From Nocardioides humi (GTDB lineage: Bacteria; Actinomycetota; Actinomycetes; Propionibacteriales; Nocardioidaceae): a stretch of 64,000 nucleotides of DNA. The notes beneath the pieces were generated by a model, which worked only from the letters and a program-made list of their open reading frames with translations, did not search any database and was not told the origin of the DNA. Shown one piece after another: positions 2,918 through 23,032 of this stretch. The stretch's first letter is position 1. Every line of letters begins with the position of its first letter. The stretch spans positions 186,001 to 250,000 of the forward strand of contig NZ_CP041146.1 of the NCBI RefSeq assembly GCF_006494775.1, written 5' to 3'. Made by a program: the position numbers and the translations under genes.

Positions 2918-3736
2918 GTGCAGGAATGGCCGCATCCCCCCGTGACCGCCCACCGCCGTCCGGCCGACGAGCGCGAGTCGCGCCGGGCGAACGGCGCCGA
3001 CTGGGACCGGTACGCCGACGAGTACCAGGCCACGCACGGCGGCTTCCTCGGCGACGTCGGCTTCGTGTGGGGTCCCGAGGGGCTCACCGAGGCGGCGGCC
3101 GGGATCCTCGGCGAGGTCCGGGACCGCGACGTCCTCGAGGTCGGCTCGGGCGCCGGCCAGTGCTCGCGCTGGGTGCGCAGCCGGGGTGGCCGCGCGGTCG
3201 GCCTGGACCTGTCCCACCGCCAGCTGCAGCACTCGCGGCGGATCGACGAGGCCACGGGCGTCGTCGTGCCGAGCGTCCTGGGCACCGCCACCGCGCTCCC
3301 CTTCGCCGACGCCAGCTTCGACGTCGTGTTCTCCTCCTTCGGGGCGCTGCAGTTCGTGGCCGACATCGACGTCGCGGTCGCCGAGACGGCGCGGGTGCTG
3401 CGCCCGGGCGGGCGGTTCGCGTTCTCGATCACGCACCCGACCCGGTGGATGTTCCCCGACGACCCCGGCGAGGAGGGGCTCACCGCGACCCAGTCGTACT
3501 GGGACCGCACGCCCTACGTCGAGGTCGACGACGAGACCGGCGCGACGTCGTACGTCGAGCACCACCGCACCCTCGGCGACTGGGTCGCGCTCCTCGCGGA
3601 CGCGGGCTTCCGGCTGACGACGCTGCTGGAGCCGGAGTGGCCGGAGGGCCACGAGCGGCTGTGGGGCGGCTGGTCCGGCACCCGCGGCCGGCTCACCCCC
3701 GGCACGGCGGTCTTCGGGATGGACCTGTCGGGGTAG
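2918..3736 (+). CDS. Class I SAM-dependent methyltransferase
   Basis: 272 residues. The SAM-binding motif I is VLEVGSGAGQCSRW at residues 72-85. The acidic end of strand 2 is AVGLDLS. Motif II/III (FDVVFSSFGALQFV and VLRPGGRFAFS) follows, giving the Methyltransf_11 fold. Substrate unknown; the long C-terminal part (W-rich, RLWGGWSGTRGRLTPG at the end) resembles actinobacterial family members of unassigned function. Start GTG 2918 is preceded by a -10-like TATCCT and no ribosome site, so the message is probably leaderless. It diverges from rpsA. Confidence 0.93.
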   Translation: MQEWPHPPVTAHRRPADERESRRANGADWDRYADEYQATHGGFLGDVGFVWGPEGLTEAAAGILGEVRDRDVLEVGSGAGQCSRWVRSRGGRAVGLDLSHRQLQHSRRIDEATGVVVPSVLGTATALPFADASFDVVFSSFGALQFVADIDVAVAETARVLRPGGRFAFSITHPTRWMFPDDPGEEGLTATQSYWDRTPYVEVDDETGATSYVEHHRTLGDWVALLADAGFRLTTLLEPEWPEGHERLWGGWSGTRGRLTPGTAVFGMDLSG

Positions 3737-6535: not shown

Positions 6536-7234
6536 GTGGATGCGGAGGAGATCGCCAAGTCGGCCGCGCTCGAGCACCGGCACTGGTGGTACGCCGCCCG
6601 CCGGGCGCTGGTCTGTCGCACCGTCCGCGACTGGCCGGCCGGCCGCGCGATCGACGTGGGCTGCGGGATGGGCGGCAACACCGCGGTGCTCCGCGCGCTC
6701 GGCTGGCAGGCCGTGGGCGTCGAGTACACCGACACCGGCGCCGGCATCGCCGCCGGCCGCGGCATCCCGGTGGTCCGGGGCGACGGCCGCCACCTCCCGA
6801 TCGCCGACGGGTCGGTCGACCTGGTGATGTCGACCGACGCCTGGGAGCACATCGACGACGACGCGGCGGTGGCCCGAGAGACGGCGCGGGTGCTGCGCCC
6901 CGGGGGCCGCGTCCTGGTGGCCGTGCCCGCCGGCATGGCCCTGTGGAGCGGCCACGACGTCGCGCTCGGGCACGTGCGCCGCTACGAGCGGCAGCAGCTG
7001 GCCGACCTCGTCACCGGCGCCGGCCTGGTCATCGACGACCTCTGGTCGTGGAACGTCCTGCTCCGGCCGGTGGTGCGAGCGCGCCGCCGCAACAAGCACG
7101 CCGCCGAGAGCGAGATGGAGGAGGTCCACCCCGTCCTCAACGCCGGCCTGCGCGCGACCCTCGCGGTGGAGCGGGCGCTGCCGGTCAGGCGGCTGCCGGG
7201 CGTCAGCCTGGTGGTCCTGGCCCACCGGCCGTGA
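6536..7234 (+). CDS. Class I SAM-dependent methyltransferase
   Basis: 232 residues. Motif I is AIDVGCGMGGNTAVL (39-53), motif post-I AVGVEYT, then VDLVMSTDAWEHIDDD and VLRPGGRVLVAVPA. It is of the type that methylates sugars, lipids or quinones, and the N-terminal EHRHWWYAARR element is common in methyltransferases of glycan clusters. Its stop overlaps the GTG of the next gene (GTGA), so the two are translationally coupled. Expression probably starts from the adjoining leaderless promoter. Substrate not deducible; the surrounding envelope genes suggest a glycan or glycolipid. Confidence 0.92.
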   Translation: MDAEEIAKSAALEHRHWWYAARRALVCRTVRDWPAGRAIDVGCGMGGNTAVLRALGWQAVGVEYTDTGAGIAAGRGIPVVRGDGRHLPIADGSVDLVMSTDAWEHIDDDAAVARETARVLRPGGRVLVAVPAGMALWSGHDVALGHVRRYERQQLADLVTGAGLVIDDLWSWNVLLRPVVRARRRNKHAAESEMEEVHPVLNAGLRATLAVERALPVRRLPGVSLVVLAHRP

Positions 7235-8253
7235 GCGGCCAGCGGCCCTGGGTCGCCGATCCCCGGATCGGCTGGCGGATCCTGCTCACCGCCACCCTCC
7301 CCCAGCCGCCGCCGGCGGAGCTCGCCGACCGGCTCGCCGCGCTCGCCCGCGACCAGGGCTGGCCCTCCCGGTCGCCGCTCGCCGCGCCGAGCCTCGCCCA
7401 CCTGCGTGCCCGGCTCGTCGCCGCGGCGCCCGAGCCGCTGCTCGTCGGCGTCCACGACCACGAGCTCGTCGTGTCGGCCCACCACGGCGCACTCGACGGG
7501 CTGAGCCTGCTCGCCGTCCTCGACCGCCTCGGCCTCGGCCCGGCGACGTCGTCGGCCCGCGGCGTCGGCGACCGTACGACGACCGGCGGCCTCGTCACGA
7601 CCGTGGCCCACCGCCTGGGCGAGGTGGCGCTCCGCCCACCCGCCCGGGTGACTCCTCCCGCGGCGCCGGTGCCGGAGCCCGGCGACGTGCTCGTGGACGC
7701 CGAGCTCGCGGGCAGCGTCCGGGTCGCTCCCCTGGTCCACGCGGCCGCGCAGGCCGTGGGGCGCCACCAGGCGACGCGCGGACGGCGGGCCCGGCACGTG
7801 GCGGTCGCCGTCGGCGCGGTCCGCACGCAGGGCGCCGCGCGCGGGCTCGGCGACCACAGCGTGCTGCTGCGGCTGCGCGACGTCGAGCGGCTGGACCTGG
7901 CCGGGGTCGCCGAGGCGCTCGGCAGCGCCCCGGTCGTCACACCGCCGGCGCCCGGCGCCGACCGGCCCTGGACGCCGCTGCTCGGCCGGGCCACCGCCAC
8001 CGGCCTGCGCGTGCTGGCGCCGCGACTCGGCTCCACCCTGCTGGTGTCCCATCTCGGCGAGGTCGACGCGCCGGCGGTGGAGCGGCTCGCCTTCCACCCG
8101 GTCACCGCGGGCGGCACCGGGATCTCGCTCGGTGCCGTCGGCCACCGCGGCCGCACGGTGCTGACGCTGCGGGCCCGCGCCGCGGAATGGAACGACAACG
8201 GCCTCGAGCAGCTGCTCGAGGCCGTCGTCTCCCTCCTCAGAGAGGAGTCCTAG
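7231..8253 (+). CDS. Condensation/PapA/WS-DGAT-superfamily acyltransferase-like protein
   Basis: 340 residues, starting at GTG 7231 in a 4-nt overlap with the upstream methyltransferase. The only clear signature is SAHHGALDGLSL at residues 82-93, the HHxxxDG active-site motif of CoA- and carrier-protein-dependent acyltransferases (condensation domains, PapA, wax-ester synthases). It is shorter than typical two-domain members (~420-450) but has a matching C-terminal half (GSTLLVSHLGEVD, then GGTGISLGAVGHRGRTVLTLRARAAEWN) like the second chloramphenicol-acetyltransferase-like lobe. It probably acylates a lipid or sugar acceptor. It converges on the glycosyltransferase operon. The specific substrate is unknown. 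Confidence 0.7.
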   Translation: MSGQRPWVADPRIGWRILLTATLPQPPPAELADRLAALARDQGWPSRSPLAAPSLAHLRARLVAAAPEPLLVGVHDHELVVSAHHGALDGLSLLAVLDRLGLGPATSSARGVGDRTTTGGLVTTVAHRLGEVALRPPARVTPPAAPVPEPGDVLVDAELAGSVRVAPLVHAAAQAVGRHQATRGRRARHVAVAVGAVRTQGAARGLGDHSVLLRLRDVERLDLAGVAEALGSAPVVTPPAPGADRPWTPLLGRATATGLRVLAPRLGSTLLVSHLGEVDAPAVERLAFHPVTAGGTGISLGAVGHRGRTVLTLRARAAEWNDNGLEQLLEAVVSLLREES

Positions 8254-8255
8254 GG

Positions 8256-9224
8256 TCAGGCGTCCACGAGCGCCTTCTCGTCCCGGTGCGCGGCGCGATC
8301 GTGCCGGGCGCTGCGGCCCAGGAGCAGCCCGGCCGCGAGCAGCGCGGCGCCGAGCAGGACGAGGACCAGCGGGAAGAGCAGCTTCATGCCGCCCAGCAGC
8401 GTGGCGTTGCTCTTGGCGTCGCCGACCAGGTCGTCGACCTGCGCCTGGGTGTAGTGGACGGTGCCCACGAACGCGGGGACCGTGACGCCGTCGTACCGCA
8501 GCTCCTGGACGCGGTCCTCGACCCGGTTGACGGGCGAGCCGGTCTTCGGCTCGACGTAGAACGTGCGGGTCATCTCGTACCACATCTCGGCGTCGACCGA
8601 CGGCTCGTCGACCCCGAAGACCGAGCCGGGCACCTCGCGGGTCTCGATGACGCTGGGCTCGACGTGCTGGACGAACTTGTAGACCGTCAGGCCCTGGATG
8701 GTCTCCTCGCCCTCGAACTCGGCGTCGACCGCCTCGCCCACGTTGTCGTCCCAGACCGGGTAGTCCTTCTTCTGCGTGTCGAAGGGGAACTTGTAGATCT
8801 GGCCCTTGCGGACGGCCGGCTCGCGCTCGCCGGCGGCGACCTCGGTCCAGGAGTCGCACTCGTCGCAGTCGACCGCCGCGCCGCTGGTGCCGTCGAAGGG
8901 CGCCCGCTCGCGGGACTGCTGGAAGACGGTGCCGTCGGCCCGCTTCACCGTGGTCGAGTTGACCCACACCACGACGCCGTCGGGCGTCTTGGCGCCGCTG
9001 TCGGCGATGGTGCGGGAGCTGATGTCGAGATCGGTGGTCTCCGGCGCCAGCACCTCGGGGTCGGAGTTGAAGATCTCGGCGTCCTCCGCCGAGAGCTTGG
9101 TGACGCCCTCGTAGTCGGGTGGGACGGTGGCCAGCACCGGGTAGGCGTAGAAGCGGACCAGGGCGGCCGCGACGATCAGGAAGACGCCGAGTCCGACGGC
9201 TACGGCGGCGAGCTTGCTGCGCAT
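8256..9224 (-). CDS. DUF3068 family membrane-anchored protein
   Basis: 322 residues. An N-terminal transmembrane segment (AAVAVGLGVFLIVAAALVRFYAYPVL), a ~250-residue exported beta-rich domain and a C-terminal helix (LLFPLVLVLLGAALLAAGLLLG) with a short basic, charged tail. This is the DUF3068 architecture found in mycolic and non-mycolic Actinobacteria close to envelope glycosyltransferases; biochemical role unassigned. ATG 9224 has AGAGG about 10 nt upstream. It is the last gene of a minus-strand run of glycosyltransferase genes, 14 nt behind the GT4. Recognition of the family is from overall layout and motifs such as VWVNSTTV and TFYVEPKTG. Confidence 0.85.
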   Translation of the reverse strand: MRSKLAAVAVGLGVFLIVAAALVRFYAYPVLATVPPDYEGVTKLSAEDAEIFNSDPEVLAPETTDLDISSRTIADSGAKTPDGVVVWVNSTTVKRADGTVFQQSRERAPFDGTSGAAVDCDECDSWTEVAAGEREPAVRKGQIYKFPFDTQKKDYPVWDDNVGEAVDAEFEGEETIQGLTVYKFVQHVEPSVIETREVPGSVFGVDEPSVDAEMWYEMTRTFYVEPKTGSPVNRVEDRVQELRYDGVTVPAFVGTVHYTQAQVDDLVGDAKSNATLLGGMKLLFPLVLVLLGAALLAAGLLLGRSARHDRAAHRDEKALVDA

Positions 9225-9238
9225 GGGCGTTTGACCTC

Positions 9239-10438
9239 TCAGACGGCCACGCGGGCGTCGCGTGGATGGTGACGGTCGGGCAGCGTGGACACGTGCCCGA
9301 GGAGCTGGGCGGTCAGCTCGCGCGCCTGGGCGCGCATCTGTGACCAGTCGAACCGGTGGGACCAGGCCAGGCACGCCTCGGCGCGCAGCACCCGGCCGCC
9401 GGGGTCGGCGGCGTCGGCCAGCGCACCGGTCAGCGCGTCGGCGAGCCGGTCGACGACGGCGGCGGGGTCGTCGCTGTCGGGGACCAGCCAGCCGCTCTCG
9501 CCGGGCCGGATGGAGTCCCGCAGGCCCGGGACGTCGCGCGCCACGGTCGGGACGCCGTGGGCGGCCGCGTCGATCACGGCCTGGCCCCAGCCCTCGGCGT
9601 CGGAGGCGCACGCGTGCACCGCCGCCCGCGCGAGCAGGGCGTCCTTCTGCGCCGCCGGCAGGAAGCCGTGGAAGGCGACCCGGTCCGCGAGGCCGAGCTC
9701 GGTGGCGAGCGCGACCAGCCGGTCGTGCTCGGGTCCGCGTCCGATCACGTCGACCCGCAGCCGGCGGCCGGCGAGCTCGGGGCGCGCCTGGACGCGGCGT
9801 ACCGTCTCCAGGACGAGGTCGACCCGCTTGTGGGTGACCAGGCGGCCGAGGACGACGATCCGGTCGGGGTCCTTCGCGGCGGCGTCGAGCAGGCCGGCCG
9901 GTGGCAGGTCGGCGCCGTTCTCGAGGATCCGGATGTCGCCGGTCCAGCCGAGCTGGTCGCGCATCTCGGCCACCGTCGACGCGGACACCGCCGCGGTGAC
10001 GTGGTGCCGGTAGACCCGGCGCATCGCGACCCGCTCCATCCAGCGGCCGAAGGCGGCCACCGGAGCCGGGAAGTGCACCGCGAACTGGGCCTGGTGGACG
10101 TGGTGGACGATCAGCAGGGCCGGCGTCCCGCGGCGCAGCACCAGCGGCGAGAAGGACGGCAGCCCACAGGCCGGGTCGATCACGGCGTCGATCCGGCGGC
10201 GGTGCCTCAGCAGCCAGGCCAGCGCGAAGAGGTAGAAGGTCAGCGCGCCCCCGCCCCGCCGTACGGCGATCCCGTCGCGGACCTCGCGCGCGGCCTGGCC
10301 CTCGTCGCGGGCGGTCACGAAGGTCACCTGCATGCCGCCCTCGTGCAGGGCACGGGCGAACTGCCAGGCGTAGATCTCCGCGCCGCCGGCCAGCGAGTGG
10401 TCCAGGTCACGCCAGTTGACGACGACGACCCGGGCCAT
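9239..10438 (-). CDS. Family 4 glycosyltransferase (GT-B)
   Basis: 399 residues. The N-terminal domain has the acceptor-side glycine loop LAGGAEIYAW. The C-terminal Rossmann domain holds the nucleotide-sugar motifs: VVLGRLVTHKRVDLVL, VDVIGRGPEHDRL, VAFHGFLP and the E-x7-E-like region ASDAEGWGQAVIDAAAHGVPTVA. It is a retaining cytoplasmic glycosyltransferase using a nucleotide- or lipid-linked sugar. Its ATG shares one base with the stop of the upstream GT2 (TGATG), so the two are coupled. With GT2 and the downstream DUF3068 gene it forms one transcription unit. Confidence 0.94.
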   Translation of the reverse strand: MARVVVVNWRDLDHSLAGGAEIYAWQFARALHEGGMQVTFVTARDEGQAAREVRDGIAVRRGGGALTFYLFALAWLLRHRRRIDAVIDPACGLPSFSPLVLRRGTPALLIVHHVHQAQFAVHFPAPVAAFGRWMERVAMRRVYRHHVTAAVSASTVAEMRDQLGWTGDIRILENGADLPPAGLLDAAAKDPDRIVVLGRLVTHKRVDLVLETVRRVQARPELAGRRLRVDVIGRGPEHDRLVALATELGLADRVAFHGFLPAAQKDALLARAAVHACASDAEGWGQAVIDAAAHGVPTVARDVPGLRDSIRPGESGWLVPDSDDPAAVVDRLADALTGALADAADPGGRVLRAEACLAWSHRFDWSQMRAQARELTAQLLGHVSTLPDRHHPRDARVAV

Positions 10439-11202
10439 CAGTGGCCCCCCGCGATCGCCGCGGCGGCCGGGACGGCGACCGGTGCCGGACGGTCCAGGGC
10501 ACGGCAGCGCCAGGCGATCCGGGCCAGCTCGGCGAACGCCCCGGCGCCGTGCCGGGACGGCACGAAGGTCGATCCGGGCACGTCGGTCCAGGTCACCGGG
10601 ATCTCCTGGACGTGGGCGCCGGCGGCGCGCAGCCGGACCAGCAGCTCGACGTCGAAGGAGAACCCCGGCGTCTGCAGGCGGCGCGCGACCTGGCGGGCCA
10701 CGCTGCCCCGGAAGACCTTGAAGCCGCACTGGGTGTCGGCGATGCCGGGCACCAGCCGCCCGGCGAGGCGCCGGTACGCCGCCGCGCCGACCGAGCGGGT
10801 GCGGCAGTGCCGCGCCTCGGTCTCGCTCGCAGCGAGCGCGCGGGACCCGATCACGACGTCGGCGCCGAGCAGCATCTGCCGCCAGGCCGCCTCGATCGCG
10901 TCGAGGCCGGTCGCGCCGTCGGCGTCCATGAAGCACACCAGGTCGGCGTCGGTGGCCAGCAGCCCCGCACGCACGGCGGCGCCCTTGCCCCGGCGTGCGC
11001 AGCGCAGGACCCGCACCGGCAGTGCCGCCGTGTCGGCGGCCCGCGCGACCTCGGCGGTGCGGTCGGTGCTCGCGTTGTCGACGACGAGCACCTCCACCCG
11101 GCCGAGCACCCCGCGGTGCTCCGTCACGTGGCGGCGCAGCTCGCGCAACGTGCGCGGCAGCCGGCGCTCCTCGTTGTACGCCGGTATGACGATCTGCAGC
11201 AT
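10438..11202 (-). CDS. Family 2 glycosyltransferase, dolichyl-phosphate-sugar synthase type
   Basis: 254 residues. GT-A fold motifs are VIPAYNEERRLPRTL, VLVVDNASTDRTAE, the catalytic metal-binding VCFMDADGATGLD and DTQCGFKVFRG. This is the pattern of dolichol/polyprenol-phosphate mannose or glucose synthases (DPM1-like, no C-terminal membrane helices). Such enzymes make polyprenyl-phosphate sugars that are the donors for GT-C glycosyltransferases, three of which are encoded just upstream. That fits a complete donor-to-transfer pathway. The sugar is unknown. Confidence 0.93.
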   Translation of the reverse strand: MLQIVIPAYNEERRLPRTLRELRRHVTEHRGVLGRVEVLVVDNASTDRTAEVARAADTAALPVRVLRCARRGKGAAVRAGLLATDADLVCFMDADGATGLDAIEAAWRQMLLGADVVIGSRALAASETEARHCRTRSVGAAAYRRLAGRLVPGIADTQCGFKVFRGSVARQVARRLQTPGFSFDVELLVRLRAAGAHVQEIPVTWTDVPGSTFVPSRHGAGAFAELARIAWRCRALDRPAPVAVPAAAAIAGGH

Positions 11203-11298
11203 CGGACCCTCCCAAGCCGTCTGCTCAACCCGTCCCTCGAGGGGACGTACGACGAACCGCGCTCCCGGCCGCGAGGGCGCGGGGTTGCGGCGAGGGAC

Positions 11299-11430
11299 CT
11301 ACTGGTCGGCGTAGCTGTAGAGCTTCTCGTTGCTGACGGGCTTGTGCTCACCCTGCGCGGCGTTGACGCCGGCGACGAGGACGACGGTCGAGGCGAGCGC
11401 CCCGACGACAGTGGCGATGATCGTGTTCAT
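11299..11430 (-). CDS. DUF2613-like small secreted/membrane protein, 43 aa
   Basis: ATG 11430 with GGGAGGGG about 8 nt upstream. Protein MNTIIATVVGALASTVVLVAGVNAAQ... is a single hydrophobic segment or signal peptide with a short polar C-terminus (SNEKLYSYADQ). It matches in size and layout the DUF2613 family. In mycobacteria a small protein of this type (Rv0236A) lies beside aftD (Rv0236c); here an AftD-like gene is three genes upstream. The neighbourhood therefore supports the assignment more than the short sequence does. Function unknown. Confidence 0.7.
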   Translation of the reverse strand: MNTIIATVVGALASTVVLVAGVNAAQGEHKPVSNEKLYSYADQ

Positions 11431-11500
11431 GCGACGGTCCCCTCCCAAAGACCGGCACCCGGGCGGCACTCCCCCATGACCCTCATGAATGTGACGCCCG

Positions 11501-13164
11501 TTACTCCCTACTGGCGAGTATCCATGCAACCCCCAGCAAGAGCAAGAGAATCGCGCAAGAATGCCCGATCGTTACGAGAATCTGCCGGTCCAGGCCGGCC
11601 GACGCCCCACGGGACGCGACCGGGCCACCGGCGGCGAGGTCGACGAGCAGCAGCCCCCGGCGTCGTACACGACCGCGCCGACGGGGACGTCGGGCTCCCC
11701 CATCCCGCGCTCGACGAGCACCCAGCGCACGCCGTTCGCGCGCAGCGCCCCGGCGGGATCCGGGTCGGCCAGGGCGAGGGTCGCCGCCACCACCCGCGGG
11801 TCCTCGGGCGGCACGACGCGGTCGCCCAGCAGCACCCGGTCGTCCACCAGCACCTCGCCGGGCAGCAGCCGGGGCGCGGGGTCGAGCACGGCACGGCGGT
11901 GGTTCCACGGGTAGCCGCGGTAGGAGCCCTCCCACGGCAGCACGACCGTGGTGTCGCCGGACCCGACGAGGTCGGCGACGTCCTCCCACGCCTGCGGGTA
12001 CGACGAGCGCTGCAGCTCGCCCAGGGCGCCCCAGGCCAGGCTCGGCAGCAGCAGCACCGGCGCCACCACGACGAGCACGATCGCGCTCCACAGCGCCTGC
12101 GTCCCGGGGCGGATCCGGGAGCGCAGGGCAGTCACGGCGTGCGCGGCGCCGACGGCCAGGACGAGGCCGAACGGGGCGAGGAACCGGTGGGAGTCGCGGA
12201 GCAGGGCCAGCCCGGGGACCGGGTCGGCCAGGCGCTCCAGCAGGTCGCTGCCGCCGGGCACGGCCGGGGCGAGCGCCAGGACGAGGGCGGCGGCACCGAG
12301 GACCGCCCAGCGGCGGCGGTCCGGCCCGCTCCGGGCCAGCCCGGCGAGGGCCACGAGGGTCAGCAGGCAGGAGAGCAGGACCAGCACCGCGCTGGTGCGC
12401 TCCTCGGGCAGGATCGAGGTCTTCCAGATGCCGCCGAGTGAGAGGACGCTGGCCGCCGTACCGGCTGCGGACTCGGCGCGGGCCGCGAAACCCTCGAAGA
12501 CCCCGTCGGTCGTCACCCGCGTGGTGGTCGCGGTCAGGGCGGGTGCCGCCCAGGTGAGGTTGGCGCCGACGGCCAGGACGGCGCATCGCGCCCAGGTACG
12601 GGGGTTCCGGCCCAGTGCGAGGACGCCGAGCACGCCGATCGCCATCACGCCGCTCGACGGGCTGCACACCGCCGACAGCACGAGCACGACCGCCGCCGGT
12701 CCCCAGTCGCGAGGGTCGGCGCGCAGCCGGAGCGCGGCGCGGGCCACCCACGGCAGCAGCAGGTAGCCGAGCAGGATCGCCCACTGGCCGATCAGGAGCC
12801 GCTCGTGGACCCAGGGGTTCCAGCAGAAGAGCGTGATCGCGGCGGCGCGGGCGTACCACCGCTGGTCGGCCACGAGCCGGGCCACGCCGAGACCGCCGGC
12901 GAGCAGGCCGCCCGCCAGCAGGAGCCGCTGCACGACGCCGCCGGGCACCACGTGGGTGGCCAGGGAGACCAGCGCGTCCATGGGGACCGCGCGCGGCAGC
13001 GAGCCGTCCAGCCCGAGCCAGGCGCTCTTCCAGGGCTGGCGCGGGACGAAGACCATGTCGCCGAACAGCCAGTACCCACCGCCGGCCAGCAGCGGCCCCA
13101 GCACCACGACCGTGACCGCCGCGGTCACGGCGAGGTCCGGCCCGGCCGTCCGTCGCAGGATCAC
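11501..13164 (-). CDS. Polytopic GT-C-like membrane protein (3' end frameshifted)
   Basis: Starts at GTG 13164 in a GTGA overlap with the upstream gene. As sequenced the frame stops at 11572 (530 aa), its last ~28 residues being low-quality text (CCSSTSPPVARSRPVG). The next frame continues sensibly from a CTGCTGCTC stretch as LLLVDLAAGGPVASRG and ends with a membrane helix (HSCAILLLLLGVAWILASRE) at 11501. One G missing from the minus-strand G5 run at 11654-11658 would join the frames into a 554-aa protein. The body has at least ten hydrophobic helices and motifs such as FGDMVFVPRQPWKSAWLG near the N-terminus. This resembles GT-C membrane glycosyltransferases; exact activity unknown. Confidence 0.8.
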
Positions 13165-14920
13165 GGCTGCTCCGGCAGACCGGCCTCGACGCCGGTGACG
13201 CAGACCGTCGCCCGGCCGTCGCCCCGGAGGGCGAGCGCGTCGACCCGGCCCGGCAGATCGGGCAGCACGAGCCACATCTCGTTCGGCCCGCGGGTGGCGA
13301 GGAACTCGGCGTCCCAGCCGCCGGCCGTGACGGTGACGGTGGACTCCCGCGACGTGAAGTAGGAGACGCGGACCAGCAACCGCCCGTCGAGGGGTACGAC
13401 GAACGGCACGGTCTGCGACGCGCTGTCGACCTCGTAGCCGCACTCCCCGTCCGGCCCCTCCTCCGCGGGGACGGCGCCCGCGAGCTCGACCGGGTGCAGG
13501 CTGCCGTCGTCCGCGACCTGCCGCAGCCGGGCGGACGGCTCGTCGAAGCGCAGGTGCTCGGGCAAGGGGGCGAGGATCCGCGACAGCTGGGAGTCGGCGC
13601 CGACCAGCGGCAGCACGACGTCGCTGGGCGCGAGCCGGTCGAAGAGGACGACGGTCGGGTTCGCGGCGAAGTCGGCCCGCAGCGTGGTCACGAACGCCCT
13701 GTCCTCGGTGTTCTGGAAGTGCGGCACGAGCAGCGCGGTGCCGGCGGCCGACGCGGCGCCGTACAGGACGACGACGCCGGCGACGACCGTCCCGCGCAGG
13801 CGCGCGGACGCCGACGCCAGCAGGCCGAGCCAGGGCGCGGAGCCGCGCAGGCAGAGGGCGACGCACAGCACGGCGGCGTGCACGGTGTCGGAGGAGTAGC
13901 GCGGGTCGAGGCCGATGATGGAGCCGAAGCCGGCGCGCCCGGACAGCAGCAGCGCGAGGTCGGCGGCGACATAGCCGGCCAGGAGCGCCAGGCCCCAGCG
14001 GCGGGCCGGCCCGCCGCGCAGGAGGAGCAGCACCGCGCCCGCGAGGGCCAGCAGCAGGGACAGCACGACCACCCACACCGCCGGCCGGACCGCGCCGCCG
14101 TCGAGCTCACCCGTCCACGGCCCGCCGAGCAGCCCCGGCACGACATTGCGGCCGAGGAACGACCAGCTCACCTCGAGCCGCTGCCGCCAGGTGCTGTCGC
14201 CGCCCTCGACGTCGGTGAGCAGGCCGTGCGCCCCGAGGAACCCGGCCAGGAGCAGCACCTGCGCGGCCCACAGCCAGCGGAACCGCGTCAGCGCCGCCCA
14301 CAGCCGCCGCCAGCCGGTCGCCTCGTCGGCGAGGGCCACCGCGACGCCGTACAGGACCGGGGGATGAGCACCGCGCGCTCGTGCCAGAGCAGGCCGACCA
14401 CGGTCGTGGCGACGATCGCGAGCACCGCCAGGAGCGGGCGCGCATCGCCCTGCCGCCAGCGGACCAGCAGCCAGACCGCGAGCAGCGAGCAGAGCACGTG
14501 CGGCCACAGGCCCATCGCCGCGCTCCACCACAGCGTCGTGGCGAGGGTCAGCGGCGCCCACGCGAAGACCGCGAGGAGGACCACCCGGCTCCACCGCTCC
14601 CCCAGCAGCCGGGTCAGCAGCAGCCACATCACCACGGTCGCCGCGGTCTGCAGGAGCAGGACGAAGGTCGCCACCGTGCCCCAGCTGTACGGCGCCAGGT
14701 GGGCCAGCAGCCAGTACGCCAGCTGCTGCAGCGGGTTCACGTGGCCCGCGGTGTCACGGACCAGGAACTCCGGGGTCAGGTCGGCTGCCGCGGCCCGGCC
14801 CGAGAGGTAGAAGTCGTCCTGGTTGAACCAGGAGCCCGCCAGCAGCACGGCCCTGCCGACCACCATCGTCAGCAGGACGGCGATCGCCGCGGCTCCCTGG
14901 CGTCCGCGCCACGCGCTCAT
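13161..14920 (-). CDS. GT-C-type membrane glycosyltransferase-like protein (frameshifted)
   Basis: ATG 14920 overlaps the preceding stop (ATGA). The first ~187 residues run MSAWRGRQGAAAIAVLL... with the acidic first-loop motif WFNQDDFYLSGR typical of GT-C enzymes and several helices up to LLWHERAVLIP. The frame then goes wrong at the C5 run (plus-strand G5, 14359-14363). With one extra C it continues PPVLYGVAVALADEATG... through further helices to a soluble C-terminal domain ending at 13161. Restored length is 586 aa. It likely uses a polyprenyl-phosphate sugar on the outer membrane face. The family is not further identified. Confidence 0.8.
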
Positions 14921-17900
14921 GGCGCCACCTCCGCCCGGCGCCGGGGTCGGGGCCGGCCGAGGACGAGGCCGGCGACCAGGCCCACCGCGAGCGCGGCGGC
15001 GACGTCGGCGCTGCCGGTGACGAACCGGGACCCGCCGAGCGCGTCGAGCAGACCCGAGGCGGCCGCCAGCGCCAGCACGGCCCCGCCGACCACCACCGGT
15101 GCCGGTCCGTGCGGGGCAGGAGCGCACCGACGAGCAGCCCGGCCGCGGCGACCGGGCCGAGCAGGACCAGGGCGACCCCCAGGGCGGCCGCCCACCAGCC
15201 GGGCGCCGGCCCGGCGCCCGGCGGCTCCGGCCACGGTCGCCACGGCGTGCGCGAGCGCCGCCGGACGAGGAGCAGGACCAGGCAGGCCGCGCCGGCCAGG
15301 AGGACGCCGCCGCTCACCGCGAGGCCGAGGGGCAGCACGACGCCGTACGTCCGCTCGGGGGCGTAGCGGAGACGGACCGTCCCGGCGTCGCCCGCGGGCA
15401 GCAGCCAGCCCTGCTGCCAGCCGTCGACCCGGATCGGCTCGAGCCGCCGCCCGTCGAGCTCGGCGATCCAGCCGGCGTTGGCGTTCTCGGGGAGCCAGAG
15501 CACGGCGTCCGGGCCGCCGCCGACCCGGACGGTCCGGCGGCCGCTGTCCCAGTGCTCGACGGCGACGTCGCGATCGCGGACCTGCGCCGTGGCGGCGTCC
15601 GTGGCGGCGTCCGTGGCGGGCACCAGCGCGACATCCGCGACGTCGAACTCGGGCGTCGGCCGGACGCCGAGGTCGTGCTCGCCCGCCGGCAGCCGGACCG
15701 TCCCGGCCGCGTCGTCCTCCTCGGGGTCGCAGCCCTCGAAGGCCAGCGGCGTCCCGTTGACCAGGTCGGCCATGGTGCCCGTCACCCGGGTCGGGACCCG
15801 GCGGCCGGCGACCTCCACCACCGGGCCGAAGCCGCACACCGCACCGGTCGGGGCGCCGGCCACGAGCGGGCGGGTGAGGTTGACGCCGGACAGGGCGATC
15901 TCGGGCACCACGACGTGACGGGAGTCCGGCGCCTTCTCGAACCGCACCTGGAGCCGGTTGGTCCGGACCGGCTCGATCTCGACCGGGTCGTCGGTGTCGA
16001 GCACCACCCGCTGCGTGTCGTCGCCGGAGGTGACGACGGCGGCGACCGGCGCGCCCGCGACACCGCCGGAGCGGACCGCGAGCGCGGTGATCGTGCGGGT
16101 CCGGCGCCACTCGAAGGTCAGCGTGGGGTACAGGTCGCTGTCGTCGGAGACCCATGCGGTGGTCGGCTGGCCGTCGTACGCGAACCGGCCGGCGACCTTG
16201 GGGTCGCCGCCGTAGGACGAGGTCACCTCGACCGGGGGCCGTCGCTCGACCTGGTCGAGCAGCCGCGCCGCCTCCGGGGTGTTGCGCACGACGACGTGCC
16301 CGGAGACGCGGTAGGAGCCGGCCGCCGAGAGCCCGAAGGAGCGGTCGAGCCCGCCGCCCTCCTCCGGTTGCCGGATCCGGGTGACGTCGCAGTCCGGCAC
16401 GGTCAGCGTGATCAGGCAGGCCCGGCGGCCCGGGACCGTGCCGAACACCAGGGCGCCGTCCGGCCCGGTGGCGCCGGGGACCGCGAAGGTACGGCGGGGC
16501 CGGAGCCCGTCGACGGCCACCTCCCGCAGCCCGACCCGCGCGGAGCGGGACGCCGTGGCGGCCTCGACCACGCGGACCTCGATCCGCTCGACCTCGCTGC
16601 CGTCGAGGGCCACCCGCACCGGTGCCCCGGAGGCGCCGACGCGGGCGCGGACCCGCTGCTCCCCCGCGACGACCTCGATGGTGCGGACGGGGACGACCTG
16701 CGCGTCGTCGGCGACCGGCGTCACCGTGACCTCCCGGACCGCGCGCGGCCCGTCGAGGTCGAGCCGGAGCCACTGCCGCTCGGGGTCGCCGGCGGCGGAG
16801 CTGATCCAGCGGGTGTCGAGGTCGCCGTCGACGGCGGCGTAGGGGCCGGAGGCGGTCACGACCGGGCCGAAGTTGTCGGCGTACCCCTGGGCCGAGGAGG
16901 CCGCGAGGCCCGTCAGGCCCACGTAGCGGGCGACCACCTGGTCGCCGCCGGGACCGCCCGGGAAGTCGTGGGCGGCCCGCTCGACCCGCCACGGCTCGTC
17001 GGCCGTCATCAGGGCGGAGACGCCCTCGTCGTTGTTGCCGAATGCCCGCTCCCGGCGCTGGTCGGCGTCCGTGACCAGGTCGGCGGGGCGCTCCCAGCCG
17101 GGCTCGCCCTCCAGGACGGTCGGCTGGTCGGGCCGGACCTGGCCGGACGCCTGGGCCAGCAGGACGCTCTCCGCCGCGCCGCGCACGGTCACGACGTCGT
17201 CGACCGCGCTCGCCCGGACCAGCGGCAGCCGGCGCGGGACCCGGAAGACCTCCACCGCGGCCTCGCCGTCGGCGCCGGTCCCGAAGCCGGCCACCCGCTG
17301 CAGGCCCGCCTTCGCGAGCGCGACCGCCGCGCCGCCCGGATGCGGCGAGCGGGTGAGCCCGCGGAGCAGGTCGCGGCGCAGCACCACATGACCGATCCCG
17401 GCGCGGGCCAGCTGGTCCGTGAGCGCCGGGGTGACCCGACCGGTGACGATGGCCTGGTCGAGCGCGGAGAGGTAGCGGATCGACTCCCCCGGCACCAGCG
17501 GGACCTGGGTCCGGCTGACCAGGTCGACGCCGCCGAGGATCGCGAGCGGCTCGTCGAGGGTCCAGCCCCAGTCCTGCTGGGCGAAGCTCGAGCCGGGTAC
17601 GACGAGGGTGCGGTCGCCCTGCCGCGGCGCCTCGCCGCGCCGCTCGGCGGCCAGGTAGTCGCGGGCCTGCTGCCAGGGATCGGAGATCTCCGTCCACCCC
17701 GGCGTCCGGGTCTGGCCGCCCAGGAACGGCTGCCCGAGCAGGGCGACCAGCAGCAGCGGCACCAGGAGCAGCGCGCCCCGGGCGGGCTCGAGCCGGGGCC
17801 GCAGGGCGACCAGGCGCGCGACGCCGGCGGCGACCGCCGTACCGAAGCCGAGGGCGAGGGGGAGCCGCACCACCGGGTCGATCTTGTGGACGTTGCGGAA

Positions 17901-18971
17901 GATCTGCAGCGGCCCGTCCAGCAGGCCGCGGACGGCGTCCGCGACCGGGGCGCCCGCAACGCCGCCGTGGGCGACGGTCAGGCAGCCGAGGCCGAGCAGC
18001 GCGGCGAGCAGCAGCGGGCGGCGGACCGGGCTGTCCATGAGCACCAGCCCGGCCAGCCCGACGCCGGCGAGGACGGCCGCGACCACGATCAGCACCGGGT
18101 CGGTGGCCAGGTCGAAGGCGGCCGGCCACCAGGGACGGTCGCCGGAGAGCAGGTAGCCGAGCCAGGAGGAGTCGCCGCGCGCCGCCTCGGACCAGCCGAT
18201 GAGCGAGGTGGTGTCGCGCGCGCTCTCGACGTACTCGAAGAACGGCGGGGCGTAGCGCGCGAGCACCGCCAGCGGCAGCGCCCACCACAGGCAGGCCGCG
18301 CCGACCGCGGCCGCCCAGCCCGCCGCCCAGCGCCACGACGCCAGCCGGGCACGGGCTCCCCAGAGCACGAGCAGGGCGGCGAGCGGGAGGCAGGCGGCCG
18401 TCTCGACCGCGTTGACGCCACCCATGCACACGACCGCCGCGCCGCTGAGCAGTGCCGCCGACCGTCCCGGCAGGCGGCCGCGCAGGTGCAGCACGACCGG
18501 CAGCACCAGCCAGGGCATCACCGCACCCGGCAGCGACTCGGCGGTCTGCACGGTCACCGTGCCGAGCAGCCGGGGCGAGAGGGCGAAGAAGGCCCCGGCG
18601 AGGAGCGCCGGCAGGTCGGCGAGCCCGACCGCGCGGGCCACCCGGCGCGCGCCCTCGCAGGCCACGATCAGGATGAGCGCGGACCAGAGCCGCTGGCCGA
18701 CCCAGTCCGGCACGCCGAGCAGGTCGGCGAGCCAGAACCAGGTGCCCTGCGGGAAGAGGTAGCCGTAGGCCTGGTTCTGGAACTCGCCGAAGTTCGACTC
18801 CGGGTGCCACAGCGAGAACGCGCCCGCCAGGAAGCTCCCGGGACGCTCGGTCAGCTCGGCGCGGGTGTCGTACGTCGTCGTGCCGGGCTGCTGCAGCAGC
18901 ATGAGGACCGCGACGACGGCGTACAGCGTCACCGCCACGCCCGTGCCCCGCGGTGCGGACGTCTCCCTCAT
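14917..18971 (-). CDS. AftD-like (DUF3367) alpha-(1->3)-arabinofuranosyltransferase family protein (3' end frameshifted)
   Basis: About 1351 aa when restored. The N-terminal GT-C membrane domain (residues 1-~430) has the AftD-type first loop: YDTRAELTERPG, then FSLWHPESNFGEFQNQAYGYLFPQG. Two discoidin/F5-8C-like carbohydrate-binding domains follow (around FGPVVTASGPYAAVDGDLDT and KVAGRFAYDGQPTTAWVSDD). C-terminal helices come last. After GALLP the sequenced frame becomes low-complexity. One missing C in the minus-strand C4 run (15113-15116) restores PVVVGGAVLALAAASGLLDALG...RRRAEVAP and a stop at 14917 that overlaps the next start by 4 nt. ATG 18971 has GGAGG 4 nt upstream. In mycobacteria AftD makes arabinan; this organism type is not known for arabinogalactan, so the sugar is open. 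Confidence 0.85.
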
Positions 18972-19003
18972 CGCACCTCCCTCCCGACCGAGTGCCCGGC
19001 GTC

Positions 19004-19009
19004 ACTGTA
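19004..19009 (-). promoter_or_regulatory. -10-like element before the AftD-like gene
   Basis: TACAGT on the minus strand, 32 nt before the ATG at 18971, leaving a short leader carrying the GGAGG ribosome site. It lies back-to-back with the flippase promoter. Confidence 0.4.
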
Positions 19010-19064
19010 GGAGACGCGCGGGCGCCGCGACCGGGTCGGCTTCGGTTCGGGCCGGTCGTCCCCC

Positions 19065-19070
19065 TAACCT
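19065..19070 (+). promoter_or_regulatory. -10 element of a probable leaderless promoter (flippase)
   Basis: TAACCT, 6 nt before GTG 19077, with TTCGGT 18 nt further upstream as a possible -35. Confidence 0.55.
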
Positions 19071-19076
19071 GCTCTG

Positions 19077-20333
19077 GTGACGACGACCACCCACTCCGCG
19101 GGCTCGCGCCTGGCCCGGCTGCTGCGCAGCAGCGCCGGCATCGCGATCGCGATGGGGGTGATGAACGTCGGCACCTACGGCTTCCAGATCGTCTCGGCCC
19201 GGCTGCTCGGCCCCGGTCAGTACGGCGCGCTGGCCGGCGTCCTGGCGCTGCTGCTGGTCCTCTCCGTCCTCCAGCTGGGCCTGCAGGCGACCTCCGCCCG
19301 CCGGATCGCCGCCGACCCGGAGCACGTCGCCGCCGTCGAGGCCGCGGCCCTGCGCACGGGCTGGCGCGCCGCCCTCGTGCTCGGCGCGGTCATGGTCCTG
19401 GCGGCGCCGCTCGTGACCAGCCTGCTGCGCCTCGACGGCCTGCTGCCCGCACTGCTCCTGGGCCTGAGCGTGGTGCCGGTGACGGTGATGGGCGCCCAGG
19501 CCGGCGTCCTCCAGGGCGAGCGCCGCTGGCTCCCGCTCAGCCTGGTCTACCTCGCCGTCGGCATCCCCCGGGTGGTGCTCGGGATCGCCTTCCTGCTCGC
19601 CTGGCGCTCGGAGACGAGCGCGATGCTCGCCATGCTGGTGGCGTCGTGGGTGCCGGTCTTCGTGGGCTCCTGGGCGCTGGGCCGGCACCCGCGCCGTACG
19701 ACGAGCGTGACGGAGTCCGAGATCCGTCACGACGTGCTGCGCGAGACCCTGGGCAGCTCGATCGCGCTGCTGGCCTTCTTCGCGATCGCGAACCTCGACG
19801 TCGTCGTCGCCCGGGTCACCCTCGACGAGCACGACGCCGGCCTGTACGCCGGCGGTCTGATCGTCACCAAGGCCGTCCTGTTCCTGCCGCAGTTCGCCGT
19901 GGTGGTGCTGTTCCCGTCCATGTCGGAGGGCACCGGGAGCCGGGCCGCGCTCGCGAAGGGCCTGGCGTTCCTGAGCAGCCTGGGCGCGGTCTGCGTCGGC
20001 GCGACCTACCTCCTCTCCGATCTCGCCCTCGTCTTCATCGGCGGCAGGGACTACGCCGGCGTGCAGGACCGCCTGTGGATGTTCGCCGTGCTCGGCGCGC
20101 TCCTCGCCCTGCTCCAGCTGCTCGTGTACGCCGGCCTGGCTCGCCGCGGGGCCTCCACGAAGTACCTCGTCGGCATCGGCGTGCTCACCCTCGTCGGCGT
20201 CGGCTCCACCGCCACCTCGGTCGCCGGGCTCGCCACCCGGGTCGCCTGCATCGACCTGGTGGTGCTGGTCGTGCTGGTCGTGCTGCAGGTCGCCCGGCAC
20301 CGCCGCGACGACGAGGACGCCTCCGCCGCCTGA
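19077..20333 (+). CDS. Polysaccharide biosynthesis flippase (MOP/Wzx-like)
   Basis: 418 residues with about 12 hydrophobic helices and the MOP-superfamily N-terminus (GIAIAMGVMNVGTYGFQIVSARLLGPGQYGALAGVLALLLV), in which the RLLGPxxYG motif is characteristic. Such proteins flip polyprenyl-linked oligosaccharides across the membrane. It diverges from the AftD-like/GT operon across 105 bp. It is therefore a likely partner of that pathway, moving the lipid-linked glycan built by GT2/GT4 to the GT-C enzymes. Ends 14 nt before the convergent polA stop. Confidence 0.9.
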   Translation: MTTTTHSAGSRLARLLRSSAGIAIAMGVMNVGTYGFQIVSARLLGPGQYGALAGVLALLLVLSVLQLGLQATSARRIAADPEHVAAVEAAALRTGWRAALVLGAVMVLAAPLVTSLLRLDGLLPALLLGLSVVPVTVMGAQAGVLQGERRWLPLSLVYLAVGIPRVVLGIAFLLAWRSETSAMLAMLVASWVPVFVGSWALGRHPRRTTSVTESEIRHDVLRETLGSSIALLAFFAIANLDVVVARVTLDEHDAGLYAGGLIVTKAVLFLPQFAVVVLFPSMSEGTGSRAALAKGLAFLSSLGAVCVGATYLLSDLALVFIGGRDYAGVQDRLWMFAVLGALLALLQLLVYAGLARRGASTKYLVGIGVLTLVGVGSTATSVAGLATRVACIDLVVLVVLVVLQVARHRRDDEDASAA

Positions 20334-20347
20334 CGTCAGGCTGACCA

Positions 20348-23032
20348 CTAGTGCGCCGCTTGATGCCAGGACCGGCCGGTGCCGACGGAGACGTCGAGCG
20401 GGACGGTGAGGTCGGCGGCGCCGGCCATCTGCTCACGGACCAGGGTCTCGAGCGCCTCCCGCTCGCCCTCGGCGACCTCGAACACGAGCTCGTCGTGGAC
20501 CTGCAGCAGCATCCGCGAGCGCAGCCCGGCGTCGCGCAGGGCGGCGTCGGTGCGGAGCATGGCGACCTTGATCAGGTCGGCGGCCGAGCCCTGGATGGGG
20601 GCGTTGAGCGCCATCCGCTCGGCGGCCTCGCGACGCATCCGGTTGTCGCTGGTGAGGTCGGGCAGGTAGCGGCGCCGGCCCATGATGGTCTCGGTGAAGC
20701 CGGTGCGGCGGGCCTCGTCGACGACGCCGGTGAGGTAGTCGCGGATGCCGCCGAAGGTCTCGAAGTACTCCTCCATCAGCCCGCTGGCCTCCTTCGGCTC
20801 GATGCCGAGCTGCTGGGAGAGGCCGAAGGCGGACAGGCCGTAGGCGAGGCCGTAGTTCATCGCCTTGATCTTGGCCCGCATCTCCGGGGTGACCTCGCCG
20901 GGCGCGACGTCGAAGACCCGGGAGGCGGTCTCGGCGTGGAAGTCGCGGCCGGTGCGGAACGCGTCGATGAGCAGCGCGTCCTCCGAGAGGTGGGCCATGA
21001 TCCGCATCTCGATCTGGCTGTAGTCGGCCGTCATCAGCTCGGCGTACCCGCTGCCGACGACGAAGCTCTCCCGGATCCGGCGGCCCTCCTCGGTGCGGAC
21101 CGGGATGTTCTGCAGGTTGGGCTCGGTGCTGGAGAGCCGGCCGGTGGCGGCGATGGTCTGGTGGAAGGTGGTGTGGATCCGGCCGTCGGGCTGGACCGTC
21201 TTGAGCAGGCCCTCGATGGTCTGCCGCAGCCGGATCACCTCGCGGTGGCGCAGCAGGTGGAGCAGGAACGGGTGCTCGGTCTTGACGTAGAGCGCCTGCA
21301 GCGCGTCGGCGTCGGTGGTGTAGCCGGTCTTGGTGCGCTTGGTCTTCGGCATGTCGAGCTCGTCGAAGAGCACGACCTGCAGCTGCTTGGGCGAGCCGAG
21401 GTTGATCTCCTTGCCGATGACGGCGTACGCCTCCTCGGCCTCCTTGCGCACCTCCTCGCCGAAGTGCGCCTCCAGGCCCTCGAGATGGTCGGTGTCGATG
21501 GCGATGCCGGTCTGCTCCATCGCGGCGAGGACGCCGACGAGCGGCATCTCGACCTCGGTCAGCAGCGAGCGACCGCCGGCCCTCTCCACCTCGTCGGCGA
21601 GCTCGGCGGACAGGTCGAGGGCGGCGCGGGCCTGGACCATCGCGCTGTTGGCGGTGTTGGCGCCCTCGTCGAAGAGCATCCCCTGGTCGTCGTCGCCGGC
21701 CGGGGCCAGCTCGCGGTGGAGGTAGCGCAGGGTGAGGTCGGCGAGGTCGTAGGAGCGCTGGTCGGGGGCGACGAGGTACGCCGCGAGGGCGGTGTCCTCG
21801 ACCACGCCGGCGAGGGTCCAGCCCTGCGCGGCGAGCGCCAGCAGCGGGCCCTTGGCGTCGTGGAGCACCTTCGGGCGGGCGGTGTCGGCGAGCCACGCGG
21901 CGACCGCGGCGTCGTCGGCGGGGCTCATCGCCTCGACGTCGACGTACGCCGCCCGGCCATCGGCGAGGGCGAAGGCGAGCCCGGTCACCCGGCCGGTGCC
22001 GCTGCCCCAGGCGCCGCGGACGGACAGGCCGACGGTCGCGTCGCCGATCTCGTCGAGCCAGGCGCCGACGGCGTCGGGGGCGAGGGTCGTGCCGTCGAGC
22101 TCGACGCCGGTCTCGACCGGGACGTCCTCGCCCGGGGCGACGACGTCGAGGATCCGGGTGCGCAGCTCGCCGCGGAACTCCAGCTCGTCGAGGAGCTCGA
22201 GGGCCGACGCACGGTCCCACTCCCCCAGGACCAGGTCGTCGACCGCCACGCCGAGGTCGAGGTCGCGGACCAGCGCGTTGAGCCGGCGGTTGCGGATGAC
22301 GTCGCCGAGGTGCTCGCGGAGCGCCTCGCCCTTCTTGCCGGTGATCTTGTCGGCCTGGGCGATCACGTTGTCGAGGCCGTCGTAGGTGTTGATCCACTTC
22401 GCGGCGAAGCCCGCGCCGACGCCGGGCACGCCCGGCAGGTTGTCGGAGGTCTCCCCGACGATCGCGGCGAGCTCGGGGTAGCGGTGCGGCGGGACGCCGT
22501 ACTTGTCCTCGACGTAGGCGGGGGTCATCCGGGCCAGGTCGGAGACCCCGCGCATCGGGTAGAGCACCGTCGAACGGTCGGTGACCAGCTGGATGGAGTC
22601 GCGGTCGCCGGTGAGGATGAGCACCTCCAGACCGCTGGTCTCGTCGGCGAGCGCCTGGGTGACCAGAGTGGCGATGATGTCGTCGGCCTCGTAGCCGGCG
22701 TGCTTGATGTACCTGATCGAGAAGCTGTCGAGCATCCGCTCGATCAGCGGGAGCTGGCTGCTGAACTCGCCCGGGGTCTTGTTGCGCTTGGCCTTGTACT
22801 CGGAGTACTCCTCGGTGCGGAACGTCTGCCGCGAGACGTCGAACGCGACGGCGACGTGGGTCGGCTGCTCGTCGCGCAGCACGTTGACCAGCATCGAGGT
22901 GAACCCGTAGACCGCATTGGTGTTCTGGCCGGTCGCGGTCGAGAAGTTCTCGACCGGGAGGGCGAAGAAGGCGCGGTAGGCCAGCGAGTGGCCGTCGAGG
23001 AGCAGCAGACGCGGACGTGAGGACTCGGGCAC
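20348..23032 (-). CDS. polA: DNA polymerase I
   Basis: 894 residues. The 5'-nuclease domain (1-~300) includes LLLDGHSLAYRAFFAL, EADDIIATL and GDRDSIQLV. The middle domain lacks the DxE exonuclease motif, so proofreading is probably absent, as in other actinobacterial Pol I. The polymerase domain has motif A DYSQIEMRIMAH, motif B RAKIKAMNYGLAYGLSAFG and motif C VHDELVFEV. It performs repair and Okazaki-fragment processing. GTG 23032 sits 6 nt behind TAGAGT with no ribosome site, suggesting a leaderless message. It is divergent from the thioesterase gene with only 41 bp between the two start codons. Confidence 0.98.
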   Translation of the reverse strand: MPESSRPRLLLLDGHSLAYRAFFALPVENFSTATGQNTNAVYGFTSMLVNVLRDEQPTHVAVAFDVSRQTFRTEEYSEYKAKRNKTPGEFSSQLPLIERMLDSFSIRYIKHAGYEADDIIATLVTQALADETSGLEVLILTGDRDSIQLVTDRSTVLYPMRGVSDLARMTPAYVEDKYGVPPHRYPELAAIVGETSDNLPGVPGVGAGFAAKWINTYDGLDNVIAQADKITGKKGEALREHLGDVIRNRRLNALVRDLDLGVAVDDLVLGEWDRASALELLDELEFRGELRTRILDVVAPGEDVPVETGVELDGTTLAPDAVGAWLDEIGDATVGLSVRGAWGSGTGRVTGLAFALADGRAAYVDVEAMSPADDAAVAAWLADTARPKVLHDAKGPLLALAAQGWTLAGVVEDTALAAYLVAPDQRSYDLADLTLRYLHRELAPAGDDDQGMLFDEGANTANSAMVQARAALDLSAELADEVERAGGRSLLTEVEMPLVGVLAAMEQTGIAIDTDHLEGLEAHFGEEVRKEAEEAYAVIGKEINLGSPKQLQVVLFDELDMPKTKRTKTGYTTDADALQALYVKTEHPFLLHLLRHREVIRLRQTIEGLLKTVQPDGRIHTTFHQTIAATGRLSSTEPNLQNIPVRTEEGRRIRESFVVGSGYAELMTADYSQIEMRIMAHLSEDALLIDAFRTGRDFHAETASRVFDVAPGEVTPEMRAKIKAMNYGLAYGLSAFGLSQQLGIEPKEASGLMEEYFETFGGIRDYLTGVVDEARRTGFTETIMGRRRYLPDLTSDNRMRREAAERMALNAPIQGSAADLIKVAMLRTDAALRDAGLRSRMLLQVHDELVFEVAEGEREALETLVREQMAGAADLTVPLDVSVGTGRSWHQAAH

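Follow-up and report, generated by a model that had tools for sequence, protein, structure and literature searches.

A putative non-mycolate form of the MmpA-PgfA-AftD envelope locus between rpsA and polA in Nocardioides humi

We analysed a 64,000-nucleotide stretch of Nocardioides humi DNA (contig NZ_CP041146.1, positions 186,001 to 250,000; hereafter the window), in which the genes between rpsA and polA include mmpA, pgfA (lmcA) and aftD. The MmpA and PgfA/LmcA families have been characterised in Corynebacterium glutamicum and mycobacteria, in trehalose-mycolate transport and in the maturation of lipomannan (LM) and lipoarabinomannan (LAM). What, then, does such a locus make in a host in which mycolate genes and arabinose-donor genes were not found? 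Our reading, to which we give a probability of about 0.55, takes it for an actinobacterial envelope locus in a non-mycolate form, whose product would be not arabinan but a lipid-anchored glycan assembled from hexose carried on polyprenyl phosphate. It starts from four observations: the gene families, their conserved linkage, the homology of MmpA to AftD and the non-finding of arabinose-donor and mycolate genes.

MmpA, reported to be essential in M. tuberculosis, has been catalogued as a protein that delivers lipids or acts as a membrane anchor. The window protein matched the MmpA equivalog NF053599 with 390.5 bits (cut-off 210). The MmpA profile aligned with the GT-C domain of AftD over 460 columns in hhalign (E 2.9e-20, probability 99.3), while the control, the flippase of the same loci and also a polytopic membrane protein, gave E 0.24 against AftD and 0.53 against MmpA. 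An Asp in the first loop of MmpA was invariant across all 42 rows of the alignment, among them those of Mycobacterium and Nocardia. The accessible text of PMC8698533 mentions, with the data not shown in that paper, a partial resemblance of MmpA to the N-terminal portion of AftD and proposes a membrane anchor. Since Pfam puts the GT-C module in that part of AftD, the similarity probably reflects a GT-C module in MmpA.

The same text describes MmpA as lacking homology to proteins outside corynebacteria and mycobacteria. This confinement was ruled out by a survey of 246 Actinomycetes genomes (a single draw, scored at model cut-offs), in which MmpA was over its cut-off in 92 genomes, of which 71 lack both Emb and Pks13; the absence of these two markers alone defines non-mycolate status in the survey. 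At least 593 relatives of MmpA were found, and the best 80 of them include Nocardioides, Pimelobacter, Marmoricola, Mumia, Kribbella, Blastococcus, Actinomadura, Nonomuraea, Flexivirga, Nocardiopsis and Kitasatospora. The nearest by MmpA, among the matches listed, were Nocardioides sp. SLBN-35 and Pimelobacter simplex (81-86%).

PgfA was over cut-off in 118 of the surveyed genomes, AftD in 120, decaprenyl-phosphate phosphoribosyltransferase (DPPRS) in 82, DprE1 in 78, and Emb and Pks13 in 21 each. The 21 Emb genomes hold all the other markers, and the Pks13 list consists of the same 21. Outside them, 65 of the 71 genomes with MmpA also carried PgfA and AftD. MmpA and PgfA occurred together in 89 genomes, PgfA alone in 29 and MmpA alone in only 3, so the grouping of the locus is not due to chance. 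In the host genus (14 genomes, the host included), MmpA and PgfA were present in 13 each, AftD in 10, DPPRS in 2 and DprE1 in 1. The sequence-only reading had proposed such a profile as a check and had named a lack of conserved gene order in relatives as a refutation; a related order was seen. Among 54 loci counted as non-mycolate by record name, GT4 was present in 53, AftD in 49 and PgfA in 38 within the stretch of DNA covered at each locus; this count includes L143 and L147 (L numbers denote loci), which were classed as mycolate-type by gene order in the GT2/donor count given below. L143, from a metagenome-assembled genome labelled Bifidobacterium breve, has the mycobacterial-type order methyltransferase-GT4-MmpA-PgfA and is perhaps a mis-binned contig.

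In the host itself, Pks13 gave no match at the 1e-300 limit used, and no Emb (EmbABC) was found. Mycolate traffic was set aside for the host on these marker genes. That nothing here points to mycolates, as had been stated from the sequence, holds insofar as AftD stands in a genome lacking Emb and a Pks13 match at that limit; it fails on ancestry, because the locus, judged by its gene families, points to the mycolate lineage by ancestry and not by product.

PgfA passed the equivalog NF053601 (248.4 bits, cut-off 160), matched PF11271 with 231.7 bits and aligned with the LmcA structure 7n3v (E 3.3e-14). Its C-terminal tail reaches approximately 20 residues past the last hydrophobic stretch, and the long tail that mycobacterial PgfA has compared to LmcA was not seen. 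Tails had a median length of 51 residues across 25 mycolate-named loci and of 16 across 33 other loci; the second group includes outliers of 138 to 307 residues. The roles assigned to PgfA/LmcA conflict: according to the accessible texts, PgfA acts in the transport of trehalose monomycolate (TMM) in M. smegmatis (PMC9678360), whereas the loss of NCgl2760 (LmcA) in C. glutamicum affected LM/LAM and left trehalose monocorynomycolate (TMCM) unchanged (PMC8698533).

AftD matched PF11847 with 575 bits (cut-off 26), together with CBM_AftD and F5/8 type C models, and aligned with the mycobacterial AftD structure 6w98 over residues 17-1267 (415.6 bits). The Asp-Thr pair following the first transmembrane segment (TM1) aligned with 6w98 and was conserved in 25 of 25 rows; we take this Asp to be the catalytic one, a candidate assignment. 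Arabinosyltransferases hold a conserved catalytic Asp (PMC12041299, accessible text). A second GT-C candidate, encoded between mmpA and aftD, was related to AftD (E 1.5e-6) and to MmpA (E 5.9e-5, probability 65) in hhalign, and its family alignment (27 rows) conserved a QDDF-type motif near the N-terminus. Motifs of this type are usual in GT-C enzymes. Second, distant AftD-like proteins (approximately 137-203 bits with the AftD model) were present at the same loci in L060, L046, L061, L062, L092, L107, L108 and L140, with Flexivirga and Luteipulveratus among the carriers.

Mycobacterial arabinosyltransferases use decaprenyl-phospho-arabinose, made via DPPRS and DprE1/E2 (PMC11127046, accessible text). 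The host gave no DPPRS match at E 1e-3, and its best DprE1 match (7.7e-14) was under the cut-off, in a search that also matches E. coli and B. subtilis below the cut-off. As neither DPPRS nor DprE1 was found over cut-off, the known route to the arabinose donor of AftD is missing in the host, and arabinan made by that route was set aside, Emb being not found either. Among the AftD genomes without Emb, 65 of 99 lack both DPPRS and DprE1 over cut-off. On the AftD tree (37 rows, six second AftD copies left out, donor label defined by DPPRS alone), the DPPRS label required 11 changes compared to a shuffled mean of 12.5-12.6 (119-121 of 500 shuffles as low); it was scattered, with clustering no greater than in shuffles and with sister rows that differ. 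Both DPPRS and DprE1 are encoded at the mmpA locus in L045, L048 and L053, whose genomes have neither Emb nor Pks13.

A GT2 protein resembling polyprenyl-phosphate sugar synthases is encoded in the operon of the window and of other loci. The window GT2 had its best NCBIfam match in NF041391 (65.7 bits, cut-off 375) and its best structural match in dolichol-phosphate mannose synthase (5mlz, E 5.2e-12). GT2 and a donor gene were found together in none of 90 loci (GT2 above 200 bits in 35, a donor gene in 7; Fisher p 0.04), a value that is a hint only, because the loci, covering approximately 10 kb on each side, were neither de-duplicated nor corrected for relatedness. The MptB family comprises polyprenol-phosphomannose-dependent mannosyltransferases, and the host encodes a member (120.2 bits, cut-off 40); a lipomannan-like product is for this reason our first guess. 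We consider a lipomannan-like lipoglycan or a related glycolipid, and not arabinan, the most likely product.

The window GT4 was tried as an orthologue of the GT4 of the mycobacterial locus and rejected, as it fell in the other of two supported subfamilies in a quick tree. On a 43-row tree, the GT4 subfamily followed the presence of GT2 at the locus with 4 changes (shuffled mean 14.5; none of 500 shuffles as low, in a tree where near-copies among the rows raise such clustering). Loci bearing GT2 contributed 15 of the 17 rows of the window's subfamily, compared to 5 of the 26 rows of the other; L077 holds a GT4 of each kind. Since GT4 subfamilies largely follow GT2, the predicted cytoplasmic module varies between locus variants, and MmpA, PgfA and AftD stay.

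The methyltransferase was rejected as an MtrP orthologue: in a quick tree of 55 rows it belonged to an 8-row clade apart from the mycobacterial clade, on a tree with a long starred branch and long-branch warnings. No MtrP orthologue was found at the locus, the rest of the genome not being searched. Neither Pfam nor NCBIfam models matched the acyltransferase-like protein at E 0.001, and a single meaningless match appeared at E up to 5. Its HHxxxDG motif is presumably of the CAT/condensation superfamily type. Relatives were found in 8 and 5 loci besides the window in two locus sets, with the motif in 4 and 4 of them. TmaT was not recognised at the locus, where this is the sole acyltransferase-like gene; the rest of the genome was not searched. 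A flippase of the window's type was found in 31 of 80 loci. The 43-residue protein gave no direct DUF2613 match, its counterpart in N. rubriscoriae (L075) matched PF11021 (24.6 bits, cut-off 22.1), and the small DUF2613-type family was present in 8 of the 80 loci.

Table 1. Predicted genes of the locus and its flanks (window positions)
Feature	Position	Strand	Evidence
Class I S-adenosylmethionine (SAM) methyltransferase	6536-7234	+	PF08241, 70.6 bits
Acyltransferase-like protein, HHGALDG (HHxxxDG) motif	7231-8253	+	Motif; no family match
PgfA/LmcA (PorA, DUF3068), short cytoplasmic tail	8256-9224	-	NF053601, PF11271, PDB 7n3v
GT4 glycosyltransferase	9239-10438	-	PF00534
GT2, polyprenyl-phosphate-hexose synthase-like	10438-11202	-	PF00535, 90.2 bits
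43-aa DUF2613-type small protein	11299-11430	-	Counterpart in N. rubriscoriae matches PF11021
MmpA, AftD-like GT-C protein without carbohydrate-binding modules	11572-13164	-	NF053599
Second GT-C candidate, QDDF-type motif near N-terminus	13161 to ~14932	-	Single open reading frame in relatives
AftD with carbohydrate-binding (CBM) and F5/8 type C modules	14754-18938	-	PF11847
Wzx/MOP-type flippase	19077-20333	+	PF01943, 46.8 bits
rpsA (flank)	1293-2768	-	
polA (flank)	20348-23032	-	

Gene calling and family scans placed the methyltransferase and acyltransferase-like genes on the forward strand, the block from pgfA to aftD on the reverse strand and the flippase gene on the forward strand (Table 1). 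Neighbouring genes overlap by 4 bases (methyltransferase/acyltransferase and mmpA/second GT-C) or by 1 base (GT4/GT2). The gene list made from the sequence alone therefore stands in content and coordinates, except that the 43-residue protein itself gives no DUF2613 match. In the 40-locus set used for comparison, gene order was read from stop-to-stop frames and is approximate. Between rpsA and the locus, a large protein with TSP3 repeats and Ig-like domains (3975-6467) lies directly upstream of the methyltransferase gene; related pieces were seen in only 2 of 40 loci of one scanned set, and in L076. Another class I methyltransferase (2942-3736) adjoins rpsA and has the same position in many Nocardioides-type loci.

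Gene families bear out the earlier suggestion that the set could make, flip and decorate a lipid-linked glycan. What follows is predicted from sequence throughout: the sugar and the acceptor, what each enzyme catalyses and the sequence in which the steps run. In the cytoplasm, a hexose is probably loaded onto polyprenyl phosphate by GT2, and a lipid-linked acceptor would be the substrate of GT4 and the methyltransferase. The flippase, of the MOP type, would turn the lipid-linked sugar over. Outside the membrane, the three GT-C proteins (MmpA, the second candidate and AftD) would extend a lipid-anchored glycan from polyprenyl-phosphate donors, AftD holding the chain by its carbohydrate-binding modules. 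PgfA may bind the glycolipid and hand it on, and the acyltransferase may esterify it. A wider and more tentative proposal, which we put somewhat below even odds, is that the locus is an old actinobacterial glycolipid factory with an exchangeable donor module, which would be DPPRS/DprE1 for arabinose in some lineages and the GT4-GT2 pair for polyprenyl-phosphate hexose in others, that AftD and MmpA are related GT-C enzymes whose sugar follows the module, that mycolate bacteria re-tooled the factory and that MmpA is a glycosyltransferase.

Several observations weigh against a hexose-based lipid-anchored glycan as the product of an intact locus. The invariant Asp of MmpA was not placed on the Asp of AftD by hhalign, and PDB profile searches with the MmpA and second GT-C alignments gave no match up to E 10. 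As to the sugar of GT2, every NCBIfam equivalog scored below its cut-off; 10 of the 30 genomes searched for MptB gave none, and three GT2 loci (L038, L049 and L066) lie in genomes with DPPRS elsewhere. The scattered donor label on the AftD tree fits a changed donor or a never-arabinose donor alike. DPPRS was within 20 kb of mmpA in 14 of the 28 non-mycolate genomes carrying both (on one contig in 18 of 28; GT2 was looked for in a subset of the 14), which makes arabinose plausible as the AftD donor in those genomes.

Lastly among these points, three frameshifts indicate that the operon may have decayed in the host strain. Frame breaks with respect to close relatives were located at approximately 11656 (MmpA), 14361 (second GT-C) and 15100 (AftD), within approximately 3.5 kb, and the compared relatives carry all three genes in open frames. 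In MmpA the C-terminus is out of frame. The second GT-C is frameshifted in the middle, with its C part at 13161-14339, and was a single open reading frame in the four relatives compared (L072, L073, L074 and L040). In AftD the C-terminal stretch below approximately 15100 is out of frame. The ends of AftD and MmpA were compared by eye with Nocardioides sp. SLBN-35 and at the DNA level with up to four relatives. That the operon is a decaying remnant, an explanation compatible with the others (the odds are not additive), we consider doubtful. Beside the three broken genes, nearly full-length matches to family models were obtained for PgfA, the flippase and PolA, as would fit local decay. However, the break is one isolated base in MmpA and one in the second GT-C, and several non-triplet gaps close together were seen in AftD alone; MmpA remains 81-86% identical to the intact L072, L073 and L078, the second GT-C 81-92% identical to L072 and L073, and the operon DNA 81-85% identical to intact relatives. 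An assembly error is equally likely.

It is unlikely that AftD nonetheless transfers arabinose, supplied through a decaprenyl-phospho-arabinose pathway missed by the models or through an unknown route. The homology of AftD to its mycobacterial counterpart with its CBM matches, the proximity of DPPRS to mmpA in half of the genomes with both, and the intermixing of donor-positive and donor-negative AftD on the tree, which also fits one common donor, agree with this explanation, but the host results for DPPRS, DprE1 and Emb speak against it. Slightly less probable still is that three-component extracytoplasmic glycosylation attaches the glycan to secreted proteins or a wall polymer instead of a lipid anchor. 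A polyprenyl-phosphate sugar synthase, a flippase and a GT-C protein are parts of such systems (PMC11127046, accessible text), and the QDDF-type motif of the second GT-C would suit them. PgfA, in contrast, accompanies MmpA in 89 of 92 genomes; its relative LmcA has cavities that suggest lipid binding (PMC8972800, accessible text), and a PgfA-like protein would not be expected in protein glycosylation. In the weakest rival, the cargo of the locus is a trehalose-type glycolipid that bears an ordinary fatty acid and not mycolate, as MmpA in C. glutamicum and PgfA in M. smegmatis would suggest. It draws on the equivalog families whose cut-offs MmpA and PgfA pass, their names referring to the delivery of trehalose lipids and the trafficking of envelope lipids, on the acyltransferase-like gene and on the role of PgfA in TMM transport in M. 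smegmatis, but we regard it as improbable because the acyltransferase is not recognisably TmaT, the methyltransferase lies outside the MtrP-type clade, no mycolate synthase (Pks13, at the 1e-300 limit) was found in the host and the loss of LmcA in C. glutamicum affected LM/LAM and spared TMCM.

A non-mycolate locus making a lipid-anchored hexose glycan thus remains our preferred reading, and it suggests that the cluster can serve a different surface glycolipid. Whatever activity the core shares cannot depend on mycolates or, in many genomes, on the known arabinose donor, and relatives without mycolate genes, often also without arabinose-donor genes, separate the functions of MmpA and PgfA/LmcA. 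AftD, MmpA and PgfA should not be named arabinan or trehalose-mycolate proteins outside mycolate formers. For the product of the locus in such bacteria, nothing was found in the open-licence literature, which was partly covered.

The pathway had been proposed as undescribed, and in this form the proposal does not stand: the locus is a rearranged variant of the known tmaT-pgfA-mmpA-aftD locus, with which corynebacteria and mycobacteria construct their outer envelope, AftD being part of the same locus in C. glutamicum. The order given there, in the accessible text of PMC7775120, is aftD (cg3161), a hypothetical gene, tmaT, two membrane proteins, a putative glycosyltransferase, a hypothetical gene and mtrP; by order, we infer from comparison with PMC8698533, also accessible in part, that the two membrane proteins are NCgl2760 (LmcA) and NCgl2761 (MmpA). 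The window shares with the C. glutamicum and mycobacterial locus the MmpA, PgfA and AftD families, their close linkage and a membrane glycolipid context. It differs in having a GT4 of another subfamily, another methyltransferase and a CAT-type acyltransferase-like gene with no recognised TmaT, in an operon that adds GT2 and a second GT-C and sits between rpsA and polA, in a host where the mycolate and Emb markers were not found. With the arabinofuranosyltransferase AftD (PDB 6w98 and 6wbx), the window AftD shares the GT-C domain, the CBMs and the Asp after TM1, whereas the known donor pathway was not found in the host, so its donor differs or comes by an unknown route. With three-component glycosylation (GtrA/GtrB/Gtr* and the pentofuranose systems), the locus has in common, by family only, a polyprenyl-phosphate sugar synthase, a flippase and a GT-C protein; the window set differs in its MOP/Wzx-type flippase, its three GT-C proteins and the presence of PgfA.

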